Shown here in pieces: positions 1 through 7,289 of a DNA stretch of 64,000 bases (position 1 is the stretch's first letter; every line of letters begins with the position of its first letter). Below the pieces are notes generated by a model. The model made no database searches, was not told where the DNA came from, and worked only from the letters and a program-made list of their open reading frames with translations. A program made the translations under genes and the position numbers. Source of the DNA: Oryzomicrobium terrae (lineage in GTDB: Bacteria > Pseudomonadota > Gammaproteobacteria > Burkholderiales > Rhodocyclaceae); the NCBI RefSeq assembly GCF_008274805.1, contig NZ_CP022579.1, forward strand, positions 2,046,001 to 2,110,000, read 5' to 3'.

Positions 1-1466
1 CGGATCACGGCGAACTGCTCGCCCTTGGCCTCGGCCAGCTTGCCCAGGGTCTGCTGCATCAGACCGAGCACGGCCTTCATGGTGACGCCGCCTTCCCGGG
101 CCATCTTGCGGCCGATCAGGTCGTTGGCCTGAATGGCGGTGGTGCCTTCGTAGATGGCGGTGATGCGGGCATCGCGCAGGTGCTGGGCGGCACCGGTTTC
201 CTCGATGAAGCCCATGCCGCCGTGCACCTGCACGCCGGTGGAGGCGATCTCGATCGACTGCTCGGTGCTCCAGCCCTTGACCACCGGGATCATCAGGTCG
301 GCGAAGGCCTGGTTCTTGGCCCGCTCGGCCTCGTCCGGATGGCGCTTGGCGGCATCCATGGCGGCGGCCACCACGTAGGCCAGGGCGCGCATGGCTTCGG
401 TCTGGGAACGCATGCTCATGAGCATGCGGCGCACGTCCGGGTGCTTGATGATGGCGACCTTGGGACCGCCGCGCACACCCACCTCGGTACCCTGGATGCG
501 CTCCTTGGCGTAGTCGCGGGCGCGCTGGTAGGCGCGCTCGGCCAGGGCCACGCCTTCCATGCCGACGGCGAAGCGGGCGGCGTTCATCATGATGAACATG
601 TATTCCAGACCACGGTTTTCCTGGCCCACCAGGTAACCGATGGCGCCACCGTTGTCGCCGAAGGCCATCACGGCGGTGGGGCTGGCGTGGATGCCGAGCT
701 TGTGCTCGATGGACACGCAGTAGGCATCGTTGCGCGCGCCCAGGCTGCCGTCGGCGTTGACCATGAACTTGGGCACGACGAACAGGGAGATGCCCTTCAC
801 GCCCTCGGGGGCGTCGGGCAGGCGGGCCAGCACCAGGTGCACGGTGTTGGACACCATGTCGTGGTCACCGTAGGTGATGAAGATCTTCTGGCCGAACACT
901 TTGTAGGTGCCGTCGCCCTGGGGCTCGGCGCGGGTGCGCACGGCGGCCAGATCGGAACCGGCGTTCGGCTCGGTCAGATTCATGGTGCCGGTCCATTCAC
1001 CGCTCACCATCTTCGGCAGGTAGCGCTGCTTGAGCTCGTCGGAGCCGGCCACCAGCAGGGCCTCGATGGCGCCCTGGGTGAGCATCGGGCACAGGGAGAA
1101 GGCCATGTTGGCCGACTTCCACATCTCGTTGACCGGGGTGGAGAGAATCTTGGGCAGACCCTGACCGCCGAATTCGGGATCACAGGCCAGGGCGGTCCAG
1201 CCGTTTTCGGCGAACTGCTGGTAGGCGGACTTGAAGCCGGCCGGCATGGTCACGGCGTTGTTGGCCCACTTGGCGCCTTCCTGGTCGCCGCTCCAGTTGA
1301 GGGGCGACAGGACGTTGCTGGCGAACTTGGACGCTTCGTCGAGGATGGCATCGGCCAGGTCGGCGGTCGCTTCTTCGCAGCCGGGCAGCTGGGCAACCTG
1401 CTCCAGACCGGCCAGTTCCTGCATCACGAACTGCATTTCGCGAAGGGGGGCGATGTATTCAGCCAT
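1..1466 (-). CDS. Acyl-CoA dehydrogenase, 3' end beyond window
   Basis: This gene encodes an FAD-dependent acyl-CoA dehydrogenase that should oxidise acyl-CoA to enoyl-CoA and pass electrons to ETF, whose genes lie just upstream. The start ATG (complement of 1464-1466) follows AAGGAG by 8 nt. The protein begins MAEYIAPLREMQFVMQEL, and about 488 residues are visible before the gene leaves the window. Landmarks are the substrate/FAD-binding stretch MNLTEPNAGSDLAAVRT, then GQKIFITYGDHD, and the C-terminal helix region QVHGGMGFIEETGAAQHLRD with YEGTTAIQ. The N-terminal extension and the sequence continuing past residue 480 fit the roughly 600-residue subclass with an extra C-terminal domain. The chain-length preference cannot be read. 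It is probably co-expressed with etfBA. Confidence 0.93.
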   Translation of the reverse strand, partial: MAEYIAPLREMQFVMQELAGLEQVAQLPGCEEATADLADAILDEASKFASNVLSPLNWSGDQEGAKWANNAVTMPAGFKSAYQQFAENGWTALACDPEFGGQGLPKILSTPVNEMWKSANMAFSLCPMLTQGAIEALLVAGSDELKQRYLPKMVSGEWTGTMNLTEPNAGSDLAAVRTRAEPQGDGTYKVFGQKIFITYGDHDMVSNTVHLVLARLPDAPEGVKGISLFVVPKFMVNADGSLGARNDAYCVSIEHKLGIHASPTAVMAFGDNGGAIGYLVGQENRGLEYMFIMMNAARFAVGMEGVALAERAYQRARDYAKERIQGTEVGVRGGPKVAIIKHPDVRRMLMSMRSQTEAMRALAYVVAAAMDAAKRHPDEAERAKNQAFADLMIPVVKGWSTEQSIEIASTGVQVHGGMGFIEETGAAQHLRDARITAIYEGTTAIQANDLIGRKMAREGGVTMKAVLGLMQQTLGKLAEAKGEQFAVI

Positions 1467-1529: not shown

Positions 1530-2195
1530 TTATTTTTTGGCCAGGTACTGGGCATCGTCGAACAGCGACACCCATTCGGGCCGGTAGATCACCATCAGGG
1601 TCACCACCATCCCGGCCAGCCATCCCTCGGAAAAGCCAAGCAGCAAAAAGTACGGCAGGTAGTCATCAAAGAGGACGGGGAACGGGTAGATCCCGGCGCC
1701 GCCCAACGCCAGCAGTACCGCCAGGCCGGTGAGAAACACCACCAGGGCCGAGCCGAAGAAGCCGTTGGCAAAGATGAAGACAAACACATTCTTGGGCAGG
1801 TAACGGTCGCCCAAGCGAAACAATCCCCAACTCAGTCCCACCGGCAGCGCAGCCATCAGTACCGCGTTGAGGCCAAACGCCTCCCAGCCCGCCGCGCCAT
1901 TGAGGGTCACCGCCGCCAGCACCGTGGTCAGCCCGAGGAAAGCCAGGGATGGCCCGACTTCGAGGGTGAACACCATGGCGCCGAGCAGGTGCAGGGAAAG
2001 GCCGGGCAGAACCCCGGCCTTGAGGCTCCACAGCAGCATCAAGGCGACGATGGAGCCGAGCCAGACGTTGCTGCGTCCGCCCTCGGTCAAGCTGCGCCAG
2101 GGGGCCCGGCGCAGCGCCACGAGCAGAATCAGCACGAACAGCCCCCAGCCGGCGCCTATCCAGGCGCCGCCGAGGAGACCGTCCGGCAGATTCAT
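1530..2195 (-). CDS. CbiM-like (COG3235-type) integral membrane protein
   Basis: The 221-residue protein is almost entirely hydrophobic, with about six membrane segments, and resembles the predicted membrane proteins related to the CbiM/energy-coupling-factor permease family. Visible features include a conserved-looking acidic/aromatic stretch near residues 165-200 (PFPVLFDDYLPYFLLLGFSE), followed by a last helix and a short charged tail. It sits between etfA (39 bp upstream) and the acyl-CoA dehydrogenase (63 bp downstream), all on the minus strand, so it is probably in the same transcript. No ATPase or EcfT partner is nearby. CbiM relatives handle cobalt or nickel, but the metal-binding N-terminal MHIxxG motif of true CbiM is absent, so the substrate is unknown. 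Confidence 0.7.
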   Translation of the reverse strand: MNLPDGLLGGAWIGAGWGLFVLILLVALRRAPWRSLTEGGRSNVWLGSIVALMLLWSLKAGVLPGLSLHLLGAMVFTLEVGPSLAFLGLTTVLAAVTLNGAAGWEAFGLNAVLMAALPVGLSWGLFRLGDRYLPKNVFVFIFANGFFGSALVVFLTGLAVLLALGGAGIYPFPVLFDDYLPYFLLLGFSEGWLAGMVVTLMVIYRPEWVSLFDDAQYLAKK

Positions 2196-2234: not shown

Positions 2235-3170
2235 TTACAGGGAAGCGGTCAGCTGCGGCACGGCCTCGAAGAGGTCGGCCACCAGGCCATAGTCGGCCAC
2301 CTGGAAGATCGGAGCTTCCGGATCCTTGTTGATCGCCACGATCACCTTGGAATCCTTCATGCCGGCCAGGTGCTGGATCGCGCCGGAGATGCCGACGGCG
2401 ATGTACAGCTCGGGAGCGACGATCTTGCCGGTCTGGCCGACCTGATAGTCGTTGGGCACGAAGCCGGCGTCCACCGCGGCACGGGAAGCGCCCAGGGCGG
2501 CACCCAGCTTGTCGGCCAGGGGTTCGAGCAGGGCCTTGTAGTTGTCGCCGTTGCCGACACCGCGGCCGCCGGAGACGATCACCTTGGCGGCGGTCAACTC
2601 GGGACGCTCGGACTTGGTGATCTCGCGACCCACCAGCTTGCTCTTGCCGAAGTCGGCAGCAGCAGCCACCGGGGCGACGCTGGCAGCACCGCCGTCAGCA
2701 GCGGCGTCGAAAGCGGTGGTACGCACGGTGATGACTTTCACCGCGTCGGCGGACTTGACCGTGGCCAGGGCGTTGCCGGCGTAGATCGGGCGGACGAAGG
2801 TATCGGCACCTTCAACCCCGACGATGTCGGAGATCTGGGCCACGTCGAGCAGGGCGGCAACACGCGGCAGGGCGTTCTTGCCATTGGCGGTGGCGGGGGC
2901 CAGCACGTGGCTGTAGCCGCCGGCCTTGGCCACGTCGACGATCAGGGCGGCCAGGTTCTCGGCGGTCTGATCGGCGTAGTGGGCGGCGTCGGCCAGCTTC
3001 ACCTGGGCCACGCCGGCCAGCTTGGCGGCTTGGTCGGCCACGGCGGCGCAGCCGGCACCGGCCACCAGCACGTGGATATCGCCGCCGATCTTGGCGGCAG
3101 CCGTCACCGCGTTGCGGGTGGCGGCCTTGAGTTGGGCGTTGTCGTGTTCGGCAATAACGAGAATGGCCAT
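2235..3170 (-). CDS. etfA: Electron transfer flavoprotein alpha subunit
   Basis: EtfA (311 residues, a normal length) forms a heterodimer with EtfB and carries the FAD that accepts electrons from acyl-CoA dehydrogenases before passing them to ETF:ubiquinone oxidoreductase. The N-terminal domain begins [15 protein letters not shown]. The C-terminal FAD domain is recognised by [31 protein letters not shown] and [20 protein letters not shown]. The ATG directly abuts the etfB stop (TAA|ATG) and uses an AAGGTG ribosome site inside the end of etfB, implying translational coupling. The pair sits in front of an acyl-CoA dehydrogenase, its likely electron donor. Confidence 0.97.
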
Positions 3171-3932
3171 TTAGATCACCTTCGCTTCGTTCTTGAGCTT
3201 TTCCACCAGCTGGGCCACGTCGGCCACCATCACGCCAGCCTGGCGCTTGGCCGGCTCGGCCACCTTGACGGTGGTCAGGCGGGGGGCCACATCGACGCCC
3301 AGGTCGGCCGGCTTGACGGTGTCGAGCGGCTTCTTCTTGGCCTTCATGATGTTGGGCAGAGTGGCGTAGCGCGGCTCGTTCAGGCGCAGGTCGGTGGAAA
3401 TCACCGCCGGCAGGGCGAGTTCGAGGGTTTCCAGGCCGCCGTCCACTTCGCGGGTCACGGTAGCCTTGTCGCCGGCCACCACGACCTTGGAGGCGAAGGT
3501 GGCTTGCGGCCAGTTGGCCAGGGCGGCGAGCATCTGGCCGACCTGGTTGGCGTCGTCGTCGATAGCCTGCTTGCCGCAGATCACCAGCTGGGGCTGTTCC
3601 TTGTCGGCCAGGGCCTTGAGCAACTTGGCCACGGCCAGGGGCTGCAGGTTGTCGGCTTCGTCGGCGCTGGTTTCGATCAGGATCGCCCGGTCGGCACCGA
3701 TGGCCAGGGCCGCGCGCAGGGTTTCCTGGCAGGCGGCGACGCCGGCGGAGACGGCCACCACTTCGGTGGCGATACCGGCTTCCTTGAGGCGCACGGCTTC
3801 TTCAACGGCGATTTCGTCGAAGGGGTTCATCGACATTTTCACGTTGGCGATATCCACGCCCGTGCCGTCGCTCTTGACCCGCACCTTGACGTTGTAATCC
3901 ACCACTCGCTTGACTGGTACCAGGATCTTCAA
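3171..3932 (-). CDS. etfB: Electron transfer flavoprotein beta subunit, TTG start
   Basis: EtfB (253 residues) binds AMP and pairs with EtfA. The protein starts [19 protein letters not shown], the usual EtfB N-terminus, and shows the ETF-beta signature around [16 protein letters not shown] and the adenine-binding segment [16 protein letters not shown]. The start is TTG (complement of 3930-3932): GAGGAG lies 6 nt upstream, and no ATG gives this conserved N-terminus. A longer reading frame exists upstream but adds residues unlike the family. It is the first gene of the etfB-etfA cluster, transcribed divergently from a TetR regulator, with two dyad operators in the shared spacer. Confidence 0.95.
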
Positions 3933-4090
3933 GACTTTCTCCTCACAAGTGTCCTCTGTCCGAGGTAAACGCAATTGCCCATGCTACCCCGGCAAACGCC
4001 CCTTTGCATGCCTTGTCGCATCGCGAGGCCCCCCGTGGCGCCCGCCCTGTCTTGGTTTGACAGCGCATGGAGCTCCCCGGACAATGAGCC

Positions 4091-4128
4091 CATACCTTGC
4101 GGTATGGATTCGCATACGGTACCGTATG
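4091..4128. promoter_or_regulatory. Twin TetR-type operators (CATAC-N6-GTATG x2)
   Basis: Two perfect 16-bp dyads of the same format lie in the etfB/tetR spacer. The first is CATACCTTGCGGTATG (4091-4106) and the second is CATACGGTACCGTATG (4113-4128). Their centres are 22 bp apart, about two helical turns, so two dimers would bind the same face of the DNA. The pair sits 65 bp before the TetR start and about 160 bp before the etfB start. This is the expected position for an operator controlling both directions. That the adjacent TetR protein binds here is inference. Confidence 0.75.
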
Positions 4129-4192
4129 GAAAAAAGCGCGTCAAGCAATAGCCGGCGCCATAATCTTCCCCAACCATTCACCGGGATCCTCC

Positions 4193-4798
4193 ATGCCCCA
4201 GGAACGCGCCAAACCCCGCACCTCGCTGGACCGCAACGACTGGATCCAGGCTGCCCTGGAAGTCCTGGCCGAGAAAGGCCTGGACGGCCTGCGCGTGGAA
4301 GTGCTGGCCAAAAGTTTCGGCGTCACCAAGGGCAGCTTCTACTGGCACTTCAAGGATCGCCAGGATCTGCTCTCGGCCGTGCTGACCCTGTGGAAGGAAG
4401 GGCGGATCAAGGACATCATCAAGCAGACCACCGCTGCCCCGGGCCGCGCCCTGCCCCAGATCTACCACGTCATCGAAGTCTATTCCGCCGCCCGCAGCCG
4501 CAAGGGCATGAACATCGAGCTGGCGATCCGCGACTGGGCCCGCCGCGATGCCGAAGCCGCCGCCGTGGTCGAGGAAGTGGACCGCTGGCGTCTCGAATGC
4601 GCCAGCCGCCTGTTCATCGAGTGCGGCCTGCCGGAAAAGGAAGCCAAGAGCCGCAGCCTGCTGCTCTACGCCTACGTCTTCGGCCAGAGCCTGATGGTGT
4701 TCGACAAGTACGACGCCAACGTCCCCGACCTGCAGGCCTGGATTGCCGACGTGATCGCCCGGGCCCCAACCATTCCCGAAACGACCTCCCCATCATGA
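4193..4798 (+). CDS. TetR-family transcriptional regulator
   Basis: This 201-residue protein has a typical TetR N-terminal helix-turn-helix at about residues 12-58 ([20 protein letters not shown], then [19 protein letters not shown]). A helical ligand-binding domain follows and contains WARRD and [12 protein letters not shown]. The start was placed at the ATG at 4193 because the domain begins shortly after it; the frame is open further upstream, but that part would cover the operators. The gene is divergent from etfBA-acyl-CoA dehydrogenase and overlaps the next gene by ATGA. By context it may sense an acyl-CoA or fatty acid and repress the etf cluster and itself. The ligand cannot be read from the sequence. 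Confidence 0.9.
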
Positions 4799-5696: not shown

Positions 5697-7289
5697 ATGA
5701 AGGTAAACCTGCCCGTTACCGGGGTTGAGCGCATGCTCAGCCCCGGCCGCCCGATCGTCACCAAGACCGACCTCAAGGGCTGCATCACCTACGCCAACGA
5801 TGCCTTCGTGCAGATCAGCGGTTTTTCCGCCGCCGAGCTGATCGGCCAGAACCACAACGTGGTTCGCCACCCGGACATGCCGCCGGAAGCCTTCGCCGAC
5901 CTGTGGAGCACGGTCAAGGCAGGTCTGGCCTGGCGCGGCCTGGTCAAGAACCGCTGCAAGAACGGCGACCACTACTGGGTCGAGGCCTACGTCACCCCCA
6001 TAACAGAAGGGGGCCGCACCGTCGGCTACATGTCGGTGCGCTCCAAGCCCGGGCAGGCCGAGGTCCAGGCCGCCGAATCGCTCTACGCCGCGGTGCGCCA
6101 GCAGCAGGCCCGTCTGCCGGCCACGGCTACCCAGCGCCACCGCCTGTCGATCAAGCAATCCCTGGTCGCTTTCTCCCTGGTGCTGGCGGCCCTGCCCCTG
6201 ATCGCCACCACCCTGCCCGCCCCCTGGCTGCTGACCATGTCGGTCGGCAACACCCTGGTCGCCCTGATCTTTGCCTGGTGGCTGCTGAACAACGTGCGCC
6301 TGCCGTTGAAGCAGGCCAACGCCATGATCCGCGAACTGAGCGAAGGCCGTCTCAACGCCGCCTTCGCCCCCCAGCACCGCTTCAAACTCAACCGCCTGAC
6401 CATGCGCCTGCAATCGCTGCGGGTGAACCTGCGGGCGATCTTTGCCGATGTGCTGGCCCACAGCCGCCAGGTCGAAGAGGAAGCCCACTCCATCGAAACC
6501 CAGATCCAGCGCATTACCACCGCCGCGCGGCAACAGGCCGAACACGTGGAATCGGTGAGCGTGTCGATGGAAGAGCTATCGGCCGCCTCGGCGGACATCG
6601 CTTCCCATGCCGGCGACAGCTATCGCCTGGCCGAAGAAGCCCTGGCCGAAGTCGATAACGGCACGGCCCAGATGGCCGAAACCCGCGCCGTCTCGCAGCA
6701 GGTGCTGACCGTGGTGGAATCGCTGCGCGGCCAGCTCGACAGCCTGGGCCAATCGGTCGGCCAGATCGGTTCCCTGAGCGACGCCATCCGCGAAATTGCC
6801 GACCAGACCAACCTGCTGGCGCTCAACGCCAGCATCGAAGCCGCCCGGGCCGGCGAAGCCGGACGCGGTTTCGCCGTGGTCGCCGACGAGGTGCGCAAGC
6901 TGGCCGAACGGACCAGCAACTGCACCGGCGACATCGCCGCCACCCTGGTCGCCGTCGGTCGGGAATCCCAGGCCGCCCTGGCGACCATGGGCGAAGCCGC
7001 CGTCGAAATCCAGCGCAGCGGCAGCCAGATCGAACGCTGCGACCAGAGCCTCGCCTTGATCCGCAGCGCCAGCGAATCGGCGCGACGGGCCAGCGAAGAG
7101 ATCCGCTCGATGCTGCAGCAGCAGGCCACCCTGACGGAAGGCATCGCCCAGACCATGGAGCAGTTCCGCCAGAATCTGGAACAGGGGGTGGAAAACGTGG
7201 AAGCGGTGGGCGGCTCGGTGACGGTGCTGGCCCGCACGGCAGACGAGCAGTACCAGTTGATCCGCCACCTGGAAGGGCAACTGGGCTGA
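5697..7289 (+). CDS. PAS-domain methyl-accepting chemotaxis protein, Aer-like
   Basis: The 530-residue protein has the architecture of Aer-type energy or oxygen sensors. A PAS domain lies at about residues 20-120 ([20 protein letters not shown] and [19 protein letters not shown]). A hydrophobic pair of helices follows at about 160-200 ([20 protein letters not shown], then [10 protein letters not shown]), then a HAMP-like region. The cytoplasmic signalling domain has the conserved hairpin tip [20 protein letters not shown] and [18 protein letters not shown]. There is no periplasmic ligand domain, so the signal is read in the cytoplasm, probably redox state through FAD bound to PAS. No C-terminal CheR-docking pentapeptide is present. 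It stands alone, without other che genes nearby. Confidence 0.93.

Follow-up and report, generated by a model that had tools for sequence, protein, structure and literature searches.

What is the role of the two short inverted repeats in the spacer that separates etfB from a divergent TetR-family gene in Oryzomicrobium terrae? An initial annotation had described two 16-bp dyads of the same CATAC-N6-GTATG format in this spacer, 22 bp apart between centres, and both are present there in the window (the whole stretch of 64,000 nucleotides that was analysed). We interpret them, with a probability of roughly 0.85, as the tandem operator of the adjacent TetR protein, which would repress tetR and etfBA, control a regulon of lipid and CoA genes via single sites and likely have a CoA thioester as its inducer. 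The features of the locus are:

1..1466, minus strand: acyl-CoA dehydrogenase gene, extending 327-328 bp past the window start
1530..2195, minus strand: gene for a CbiM-like membrane protein, separating etfA from the acyl-CoA dehydrogenase gene
2235..3170, minus strand: etfA, electron transfer flavoprotein alpha subunit
3171..3932, minus strand: etfB, electron transfer flavoprotein beta subunit, with a TTG start
4057..4085, plus strand: predicted tetR promoter, TTGACA-17-GACAAT, with 10/12 consensus matches (shuffles: mean 0.0, sd 0.2)
4091..4106: putative operator 1, CATACCTTGCGGTATG, conserved in relatives and over the expected tetR transcription start
4113..4128: putative operator 2, CATACGGTACCGTATG, conserved in relatives and holding the predicted etfB -10 (TACCGT, minus strand)
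4116..4144, minus strand: predicted etfB promoter, TTGACG-17-TACCGT, with 8/12 matches by hand count, under the promoter-scan threshold
4193..4798, plus strand: gene for a TetR-family regulator of 201 aa (P0001), with a PF00440 match and a TetR fold in the predicted model

The initial annotation held it likely that the regulator controls etfB, etfA and the acyl-CoA dehydrogenase gene as well as itself. Control of tetR and etfBA fits the operator positions, on or beside the predicted core promoters. The dehydrogenase part of the claim stands less well, as this gene does not directly follow etfA. It may belong to the etf operon at the downstream end, and co-transcription is uncertain because the CbiM-like gene intervenes. 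The TTG start of etfB (window 3932-3930) is preceded by a good AGGAG ribosome-binding site. A PAS-type chemotaxis receptor starting MKVNLPVTG or MKKNFPVTG is encoded in three copies (window 5697-7289; L008, window -2365 to -779; L006:1919-3541), two of which flank the etf/tetR region.

Operator 1 has perfect arms of 6+6 bases around a 4-bp core (TTGC), and operator 2 is self-complementary across its full 16 bp; their centres are at 4098.5 and 4120.5. These dyads are the only two matches to CATAC-N6-GTATG in the window at up to one mismatch. In 100 dinucleotide shuffles of the window the mean was 0.32 such matches, and two or more appeared in 7/100. At 66% G+C, chance predicts 0.018 perfect sites per window (about one per genome) and, from base composition, about 1e-5 site pairs per genome with starts 17-60 bp apart. 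The genome as a whole has five perfect places, compared with two for a reversed-pattern control, and 14 compared with 11 when one mismatch is allowed. The raw count is thus weak on its own, and the case is carried by position and conservation. We dropped the per-genome site count as proof on account of the 14 versus 11, and used regulator presence or absence and gene-centred scans as controls in place of raw counts.

We looked for conservation in two overlapping sets of related sequences, so that their counts are not independent trials. The first comprises 61 genomes (our own and 60 relatives), 26 of which have a TetR homologue at E <= 1e-20. In 24 of the 26 the gene and etfB are divergent, with a perfect site in 22 of the 24 spacers. 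The exceptions are L029 and L032; the spacer of the latter contains AGCACCTTGCGGTGCG, a possible diverged operator. The two non-divergent homologues (L033, 41% identical, and L034, 36%) lack both a neighbouring etfB and a site of the CATAC-N6-GTATG type. Upstream of the TetR gene at L033 (G043) there are two ATAGGNNNNCCTAT dyads, at 1251-1264 and 1271-1284 and thus 20 bp apart, similar in layout and different in half-site.

The second set, from a profile search of named genomes, comprises 81 loci: our own and the best 80 of 591 confirmed relatives, among them Accumulibacter, Thauera, Aromatoleum, Zoogloea and Dechloromonas. The divergent etfB-tetR arrangement occurs at 65 of the 81. Among these 65 divergent loci, 59 have a perfect site, 64 have one with at most one mismatch, and 54 have at least two sites; L196 is the only one without a site at up to one mismatch. 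We take this conservation (64/65) to mark the dyads as operators. The 70 distinct 16-mers from the etf loci have fixed half-sites and a varying core, with no A at position 6 and no T at position 11 in any of them. Of 45 aligned TetR proteins, 44 share the helix-turn-helix sequence TKGSFYWHF, and this near-constancy fits a constant half-site.

Neighbouring sites at the etf loci of the 81-locus set are spaced, start to start, by 19-24 bp (n=35), 30-31 bp (n=15), 50-53 bp (n=14) or 62 bp (n=1), close to 2, 3, 5 and 6 helical turns. Only 29 of 20,000 random draws were phased as well as the 12 distinct spacings, a statistic that has to allow for the non-independence of indels among related loci. 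Distant relatives show less regularity, with spacings of 22, 24, 27, 36, 38, 40, 42, 44 and 80 bp that agree partially with phasing.

The predicted tetR and etfB promoters face each other and meet at the operators, with a gap of 5 bp from the predicted tetR -10 to operator 1. Their expected start sites are near 4092 (+) and 4109 (-). The same layout recurs among the 65 divergent loci (own and best 80 of 591 relatives). An etf-type promoter has its -10 within a site at 42 of them (mean for random placement 8.76), and a tetR promoter abuts a site at 26, our own included (mean 2.64); the criterion for the former was the looser of the two. Both layouts occur together at 20 loci. By hand count, the last ATG of an operator is in frame and at, or up to 9 bases from, the aligned tetR start at 28 of the same 65 loci. 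Such an ATG reads straight into the TetR protein, so in those 28 loci the operator holds the tetR start codon. These operators are mostly of the form AATAC-N6-GTATG (e.g., L139, L141, L147, L150, L157 and L174), and TetR binding to them would cover the translation start of tetR. The tetR start codon is not inside an operator in the window.

Palindromes of this kind could also be transcribed hairpins (attenuator or terminator) or products of chance. A perfect site elsewhere in the genome (L006:4279) does sit in a hairpin with a minus-strand T run. In the window, a scan of 3900-4250 found no terminator-like element, and we rejected a terminator or hairpin reading of 4091-4128 on that result. The fixed half-sites with a varying core and the placement of the sites at promoters also argue against it, and we consider it very improbable that the dyads are anything other than protein operators.

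If the dyads are operators of the TetR protein, such sites should depend on its presence in the genome. In 150 genomes of the family, 91 have the regulator (called at E <= 1e-40) and 59, obtained by subtraction, do not. The pattern CATACSNNNNSGTATG occurs 189 times in the 91 genomes with the regulator versus 20 for the reversed-pattern control, with at least one occurrence in 84/91. In the 59 genomes lacking it there are 6 occurrences versus 11 for the control, in 6/59 genomes. A looser pattern in the 61-genome set gives 74 versus 11 for the control in the 24 genomes with a divergent TetR gene, and 26 versus 21 in the 37 without one. The totals of 189 and 74 include the etf-locus sites.

The initial annotation had suggested searching the genome for CATAC-N6-GTATG at other lipid genes, and such sites exist. 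Two of the five perfect places are those of the etfB/tetR spacer. A third (L005:4484) stands some 45 bp ahead of a 3-hydroxybutyryl-CoA dehydrogenase (hbd) gene. The fourth (L007:4472) is followed after 7 bp by a TATAAT and precedes a gene for an acetyl-CoA hydrolase/transferase. The fifth is the above-mentioned hairpin site (hairpin L006:4260-4310, near 2342778), which follows a thiolase gene; we do not count it as an operator, and regard it as a terminator-like element that matches the format by coincidence. The spacer that separates a thioesterase gene from the gene for ETF-QO holds a one-mismatch site, CATACGATAGCGTATT (L039), with a TATAAT 7 bp ahead of it. The other eight of the nine one-mismatch places are intragenic or at no recognisable lipid gene.

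Outside the etf locus, the 24 genomes with the regulator have 45 perfect sites (three in our own genome and 42 in the others). Lipid, acetate or CoA genes adjoin 23 of them: hbd (9), the ETF-QO/thioesterase spacer (6), CoA-transferase (3), actP (2) and three sites in G008, the only genome with fadD-, fadH- and fadB-like targets (one each). The remaining 22 are at other genes: an MFS transporter gene at three (L078, L088 and L098, in G032, G021 and G026) and 19 others, including RND pump loci (3), DUF2889-sucC (1) and a terminator (1). The MFS transporter may be a regulon member that carries an acid or another substrate. No lipid, acetate or CoA gene was identified at the 18 sites read of 26 in genomes lacking the regulator; the 18 are not a random draw (four listed and four unlisted sites were left out). 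Genes at the 45 and 18 sites were named by unblinded reading, with Pfam searches of 12 proteins at sites, two DUF proteins, five etf-locus genes and the thiolase of our own genome.

The gene-centred control started from homologues chosen independently of the sites, with 350 bp upstream scanned at up to one mismatch (167 bp scannable at one hbd locus with the regulator, L270). A site precedes hbd at 9/16 loci in genomes with the regulator versus 0/12 in those without (28 loci, 26 genomes; Fisher p 0.0028). For ETF-QO the figures are 12/28 versus 0/32 (60 loci, 54 genomes; Fisher p 2e-5). A purely local autoregulator of tetR and etfBA, with all other sites due to chance or to other regulators, would not be expected to give this result, and we think it quite unlikely. 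It would suit genomes such as G011 and G019, whose one S-flanked site belongs to the etf locus, and it would also suit the perfect sites at RND pump genes. The wider regulon that we favour would still be patchy beyond etfBA, given the loci in genomes with the regulator that lack a site (7/16 for hbd and 16/28 for ETF-QO). Sites are thus conserved with tetR across much of the family, track the presence and absence of the regulator and recur at lipid and CoA genes, and the absence of further sites in the genome or in relatives, which the initial annotation had named as evidence against its proposal, is not what we observe.

Not every CATAC-N6-GTATG site can belong to one regulon, and we rejected that idea. 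Five are at RND pump loci (L099, L101, L105, L119 and L125), with AcrR-type regulators beside them where seen; four of the five loci have CATACANNNNTGTATG, and L099 has CATACACGAACGTATG. Loci of AcrR-type pump repressors can thus hold the same format and differ in the inner bases, none of the 70 distinct etf-locus 16-mers having A at position 6. For that reason, and because its neighbours are etfBA, we do not identify the present regulator as an AcrR-type pump repressor. The position-6 rule is not absolute: A is also found at an actP site (L079, CATACACTATGGTATG) and at the distant homologues L225, L227, L231 and L244.

The 201-aa protein matches PF00440 (E 3.1e-13) over residues 18-63, the N-terminal TetR helix-turn-helix domain. 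Its AlphaFold2 model (pLDDT 89.2) has ten helices in the all-helical, two-domain TetR fold, and the best structural matches of the model, by Foldseek and by VIA-align, are chains of the TetR family. The first five Foldseek rows are Bacillus FadR (TM 0.60-0.65, E about 1e-4, 16-20% identity). The two methods disagree on the nearest chain, and Bacillus FadR is not among the 50 VIA-align matches listed. Sequence searches of the PDB gave matches mostly to the DNA-binding domain. Structure comparison of the predicted model singles out no clear ligand analogue, and the NCBIfam matches listed for the protein include no PsrA model. A palindromic operator near the regulator's own gene, at predicted promoters, is a TetR-family trait that appears to be present here.

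Among 300 genomes drawn from the order, the TetR profile has 13 matches at E <= 1e-20, in 6/9 genomes of the same family and 7/291 of the others, with an orthologue-like score among the latter only in G438 (E 1.9e-90). The operator extends to more distant proteins. The 13 matches include five further distant homologues (L244-L248), and four of these, all but L247, carry a site at up to one mismatch close to the start of tetR. For other families of the class, 15 of 22 loci carry such a site between -250 and +60 relative to the approximate start of tetR; in two more (L222 and L223) it is on the 3' side, and the remaining five lack it. Of 16 non-divergent relatives from the best 80 of 591 (40-52% identity), 13 of which we take to be Alphaproteobacteria, 10 have a site within 350 bp, perfect in five cases. 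By reading, some distant relatives with the operator adjoin acyl-CoA ligases or thioesterases.

This setting bears on the ligand. The TetR protein may regulate as proposed and sense something other than an acyl-CoA, such as a free fatty acid, a signal derived from acetate or propionate, or the redox state of the electron-transfer chain. The recurrent targets (ETF, ETF-QO, hbd, CoA-transferase and acetate permease) are not classical fad genes, those being confined to one genome, and would suit such a signal. Against it, hbd, thioesterase and acyl-CoA ligase are enzymes of CoA thioesters, and the ligase and thioesterase neighbours of distant relatives point the same way, as does, weakly, the acyl-CoA-binding FadR at the head of the Foldseek list. 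We therefore regard a non-acyl-CoA ligand as unlikely, if a good deal less so than a purely local regulator, and a CoA thioester as the probable inducer.

We infer binding, repression, cooperativity and ligand from these patterns, and propose the following mechanism. One TetR homodimer would bind each dyad, both on the same DNA face, because 22 bp is about two helical turns. With operator 1 over the expected tetR start and operator 2 over the predicted etfB -10, a bound pair would shut the two face-to-face promoters at once. The result would be autoregulation of tetR and repression of etfBA, the latter perhaps reaching as far as the acyl-CoA dehydrogenase gene. From single sites in its own genome the protein would also act on hbd, ETF-QO/thioesterase and acetyl-CoA hydrolase/CoA-transferase genes; further targets in some relatives may be actP, the MFS transporter or more genes of beta-oxidation. 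The likely inducer would be an acyl-CoA or another CoA thioester from the breakdown of fatty acids or short-chain acids. On the sequence evidence, the dyads are very probably the conserved tandem operator of a TetR repressor that regulates its own gene and, in the Rhodocyclaceae, a small regulon of variable content centred on ETF/ETF-QO and short-chain acyl-CoA genes. The sites probably mark a small control circuit, and one that is possibly undescribed.

We also offer a more tentative proposal, to which we give slightly less than even odds: CATAC-N6-GTATG may be the recognition code of an old, widely distributed subfamily of TetR proteins whose role is to report the load of CoA thioesters. The targets in the Rhodocyclaceae would be ETF and ETF-QO, by which electrons leave beta-oxidation, and acetate or short-chain CoA genes rather than classical fad genes, controlled via helically phased arrays on face-to-face promoters. 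Homologues of 40-52% identity in Alphaproteobacteria and other classes would share the half-sites, some of them beside acyl-CoA ligases, thioesterases or acyl-CoA dehydrogenases.

The Rhodocyclaceae use volatile fatty acids, aromatic acids and lipids in wastewater and denitrifying systems. A defined operator with a testable list of targets would provide a control point for ETF-dependent oxidation in this family. A half-site fixed down to 40-50% identity would allow the regulon to be read from sequence in other classes. FadP, in the available parts of its description, is reported for other betaproteobacterial groups (PMC5343134).

Among the titles and abstract openings listed by a search of literature available without subscription, we found neither this operator nor a TetR regulator of etfBA in the Rhodocyclales. 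Comparison with described regulators relies on the portions of the cited sources that were available. FadP of Ralstonia, Burkholderia and Comamonadaceae is a TetR repressor of fatty-acid breakdown whose inducer is given there as unknown (PMC5343134, PMC12543098). In R. solanacearum, according to the same partial account, it covers 12 operons and 27 genes. The likeness to the present protein is that of a betaproteobacterial TetR repressor tied to fatty-acid breakdown. As described in those portions FadP belongs to other groups, and the distribution of the present TetR, with profile matches in 6/9 genomes of its own family and 7/291 others, differs from that. The FadP operator motif is reported in Kazakov 2009.

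Bacillus FadR binds acyl-CoA, and its operator differs from CATAC-N6-GTATG. Thermus FadR binds TTRNACYNRGTNYAA, as given in the available text (PMC5597230). Similar in its arms is MbdR of the related genus Azoarcus (strain CIB), described in the accessible portion of its source as a TetR repressor with ATAC/GTAT arms over the -10 and start sites, which controls aromatic degradation and is induced by a CoA thioester, 3-methylbenzoyl-CoA (PMC4424350). It shares the ATAC and GTAT arms and differs in having N10 rather than N6 between them; its ATAC-N10-GTAT format, as reported there, occurs in 0/65 of the divergent etf spacers (own and best 80 of 591 relatives).

Similar in its targets is PsrA of Pseudomonas, also of the TetR family. 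According to the portion of the source available, it represses etfBA (PA2952-2951) and, in P. putida, its own promoter, has a positive effect on ETF-QO (PA2953) and binds G/CAAAC-N2-4-GTTTG/C (PMC13104628). The initial annotation had not recognised the site in the window from characterised FadR, FadP or PsrA sites. For PsrA this is borne out with the motif as given there: a dyad of PsrA format is absent from the window spacer and present in one of the 65 etf spacers (L152; own and best 80 of 591 relatives). The present operator thus matches none of the PsrA, MbdR and Thermus FadR motifs as given in the accessible text, the FadP motif being outside this comparison. The likeness to PsrA, as far as that source describes it, is in the circuit: a TetR regulator of itself, etfBA and ETF-QO, here a candidate system known from sequence. 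The best reading, by analogy, is that the regulator works like PsrA, through another operator.
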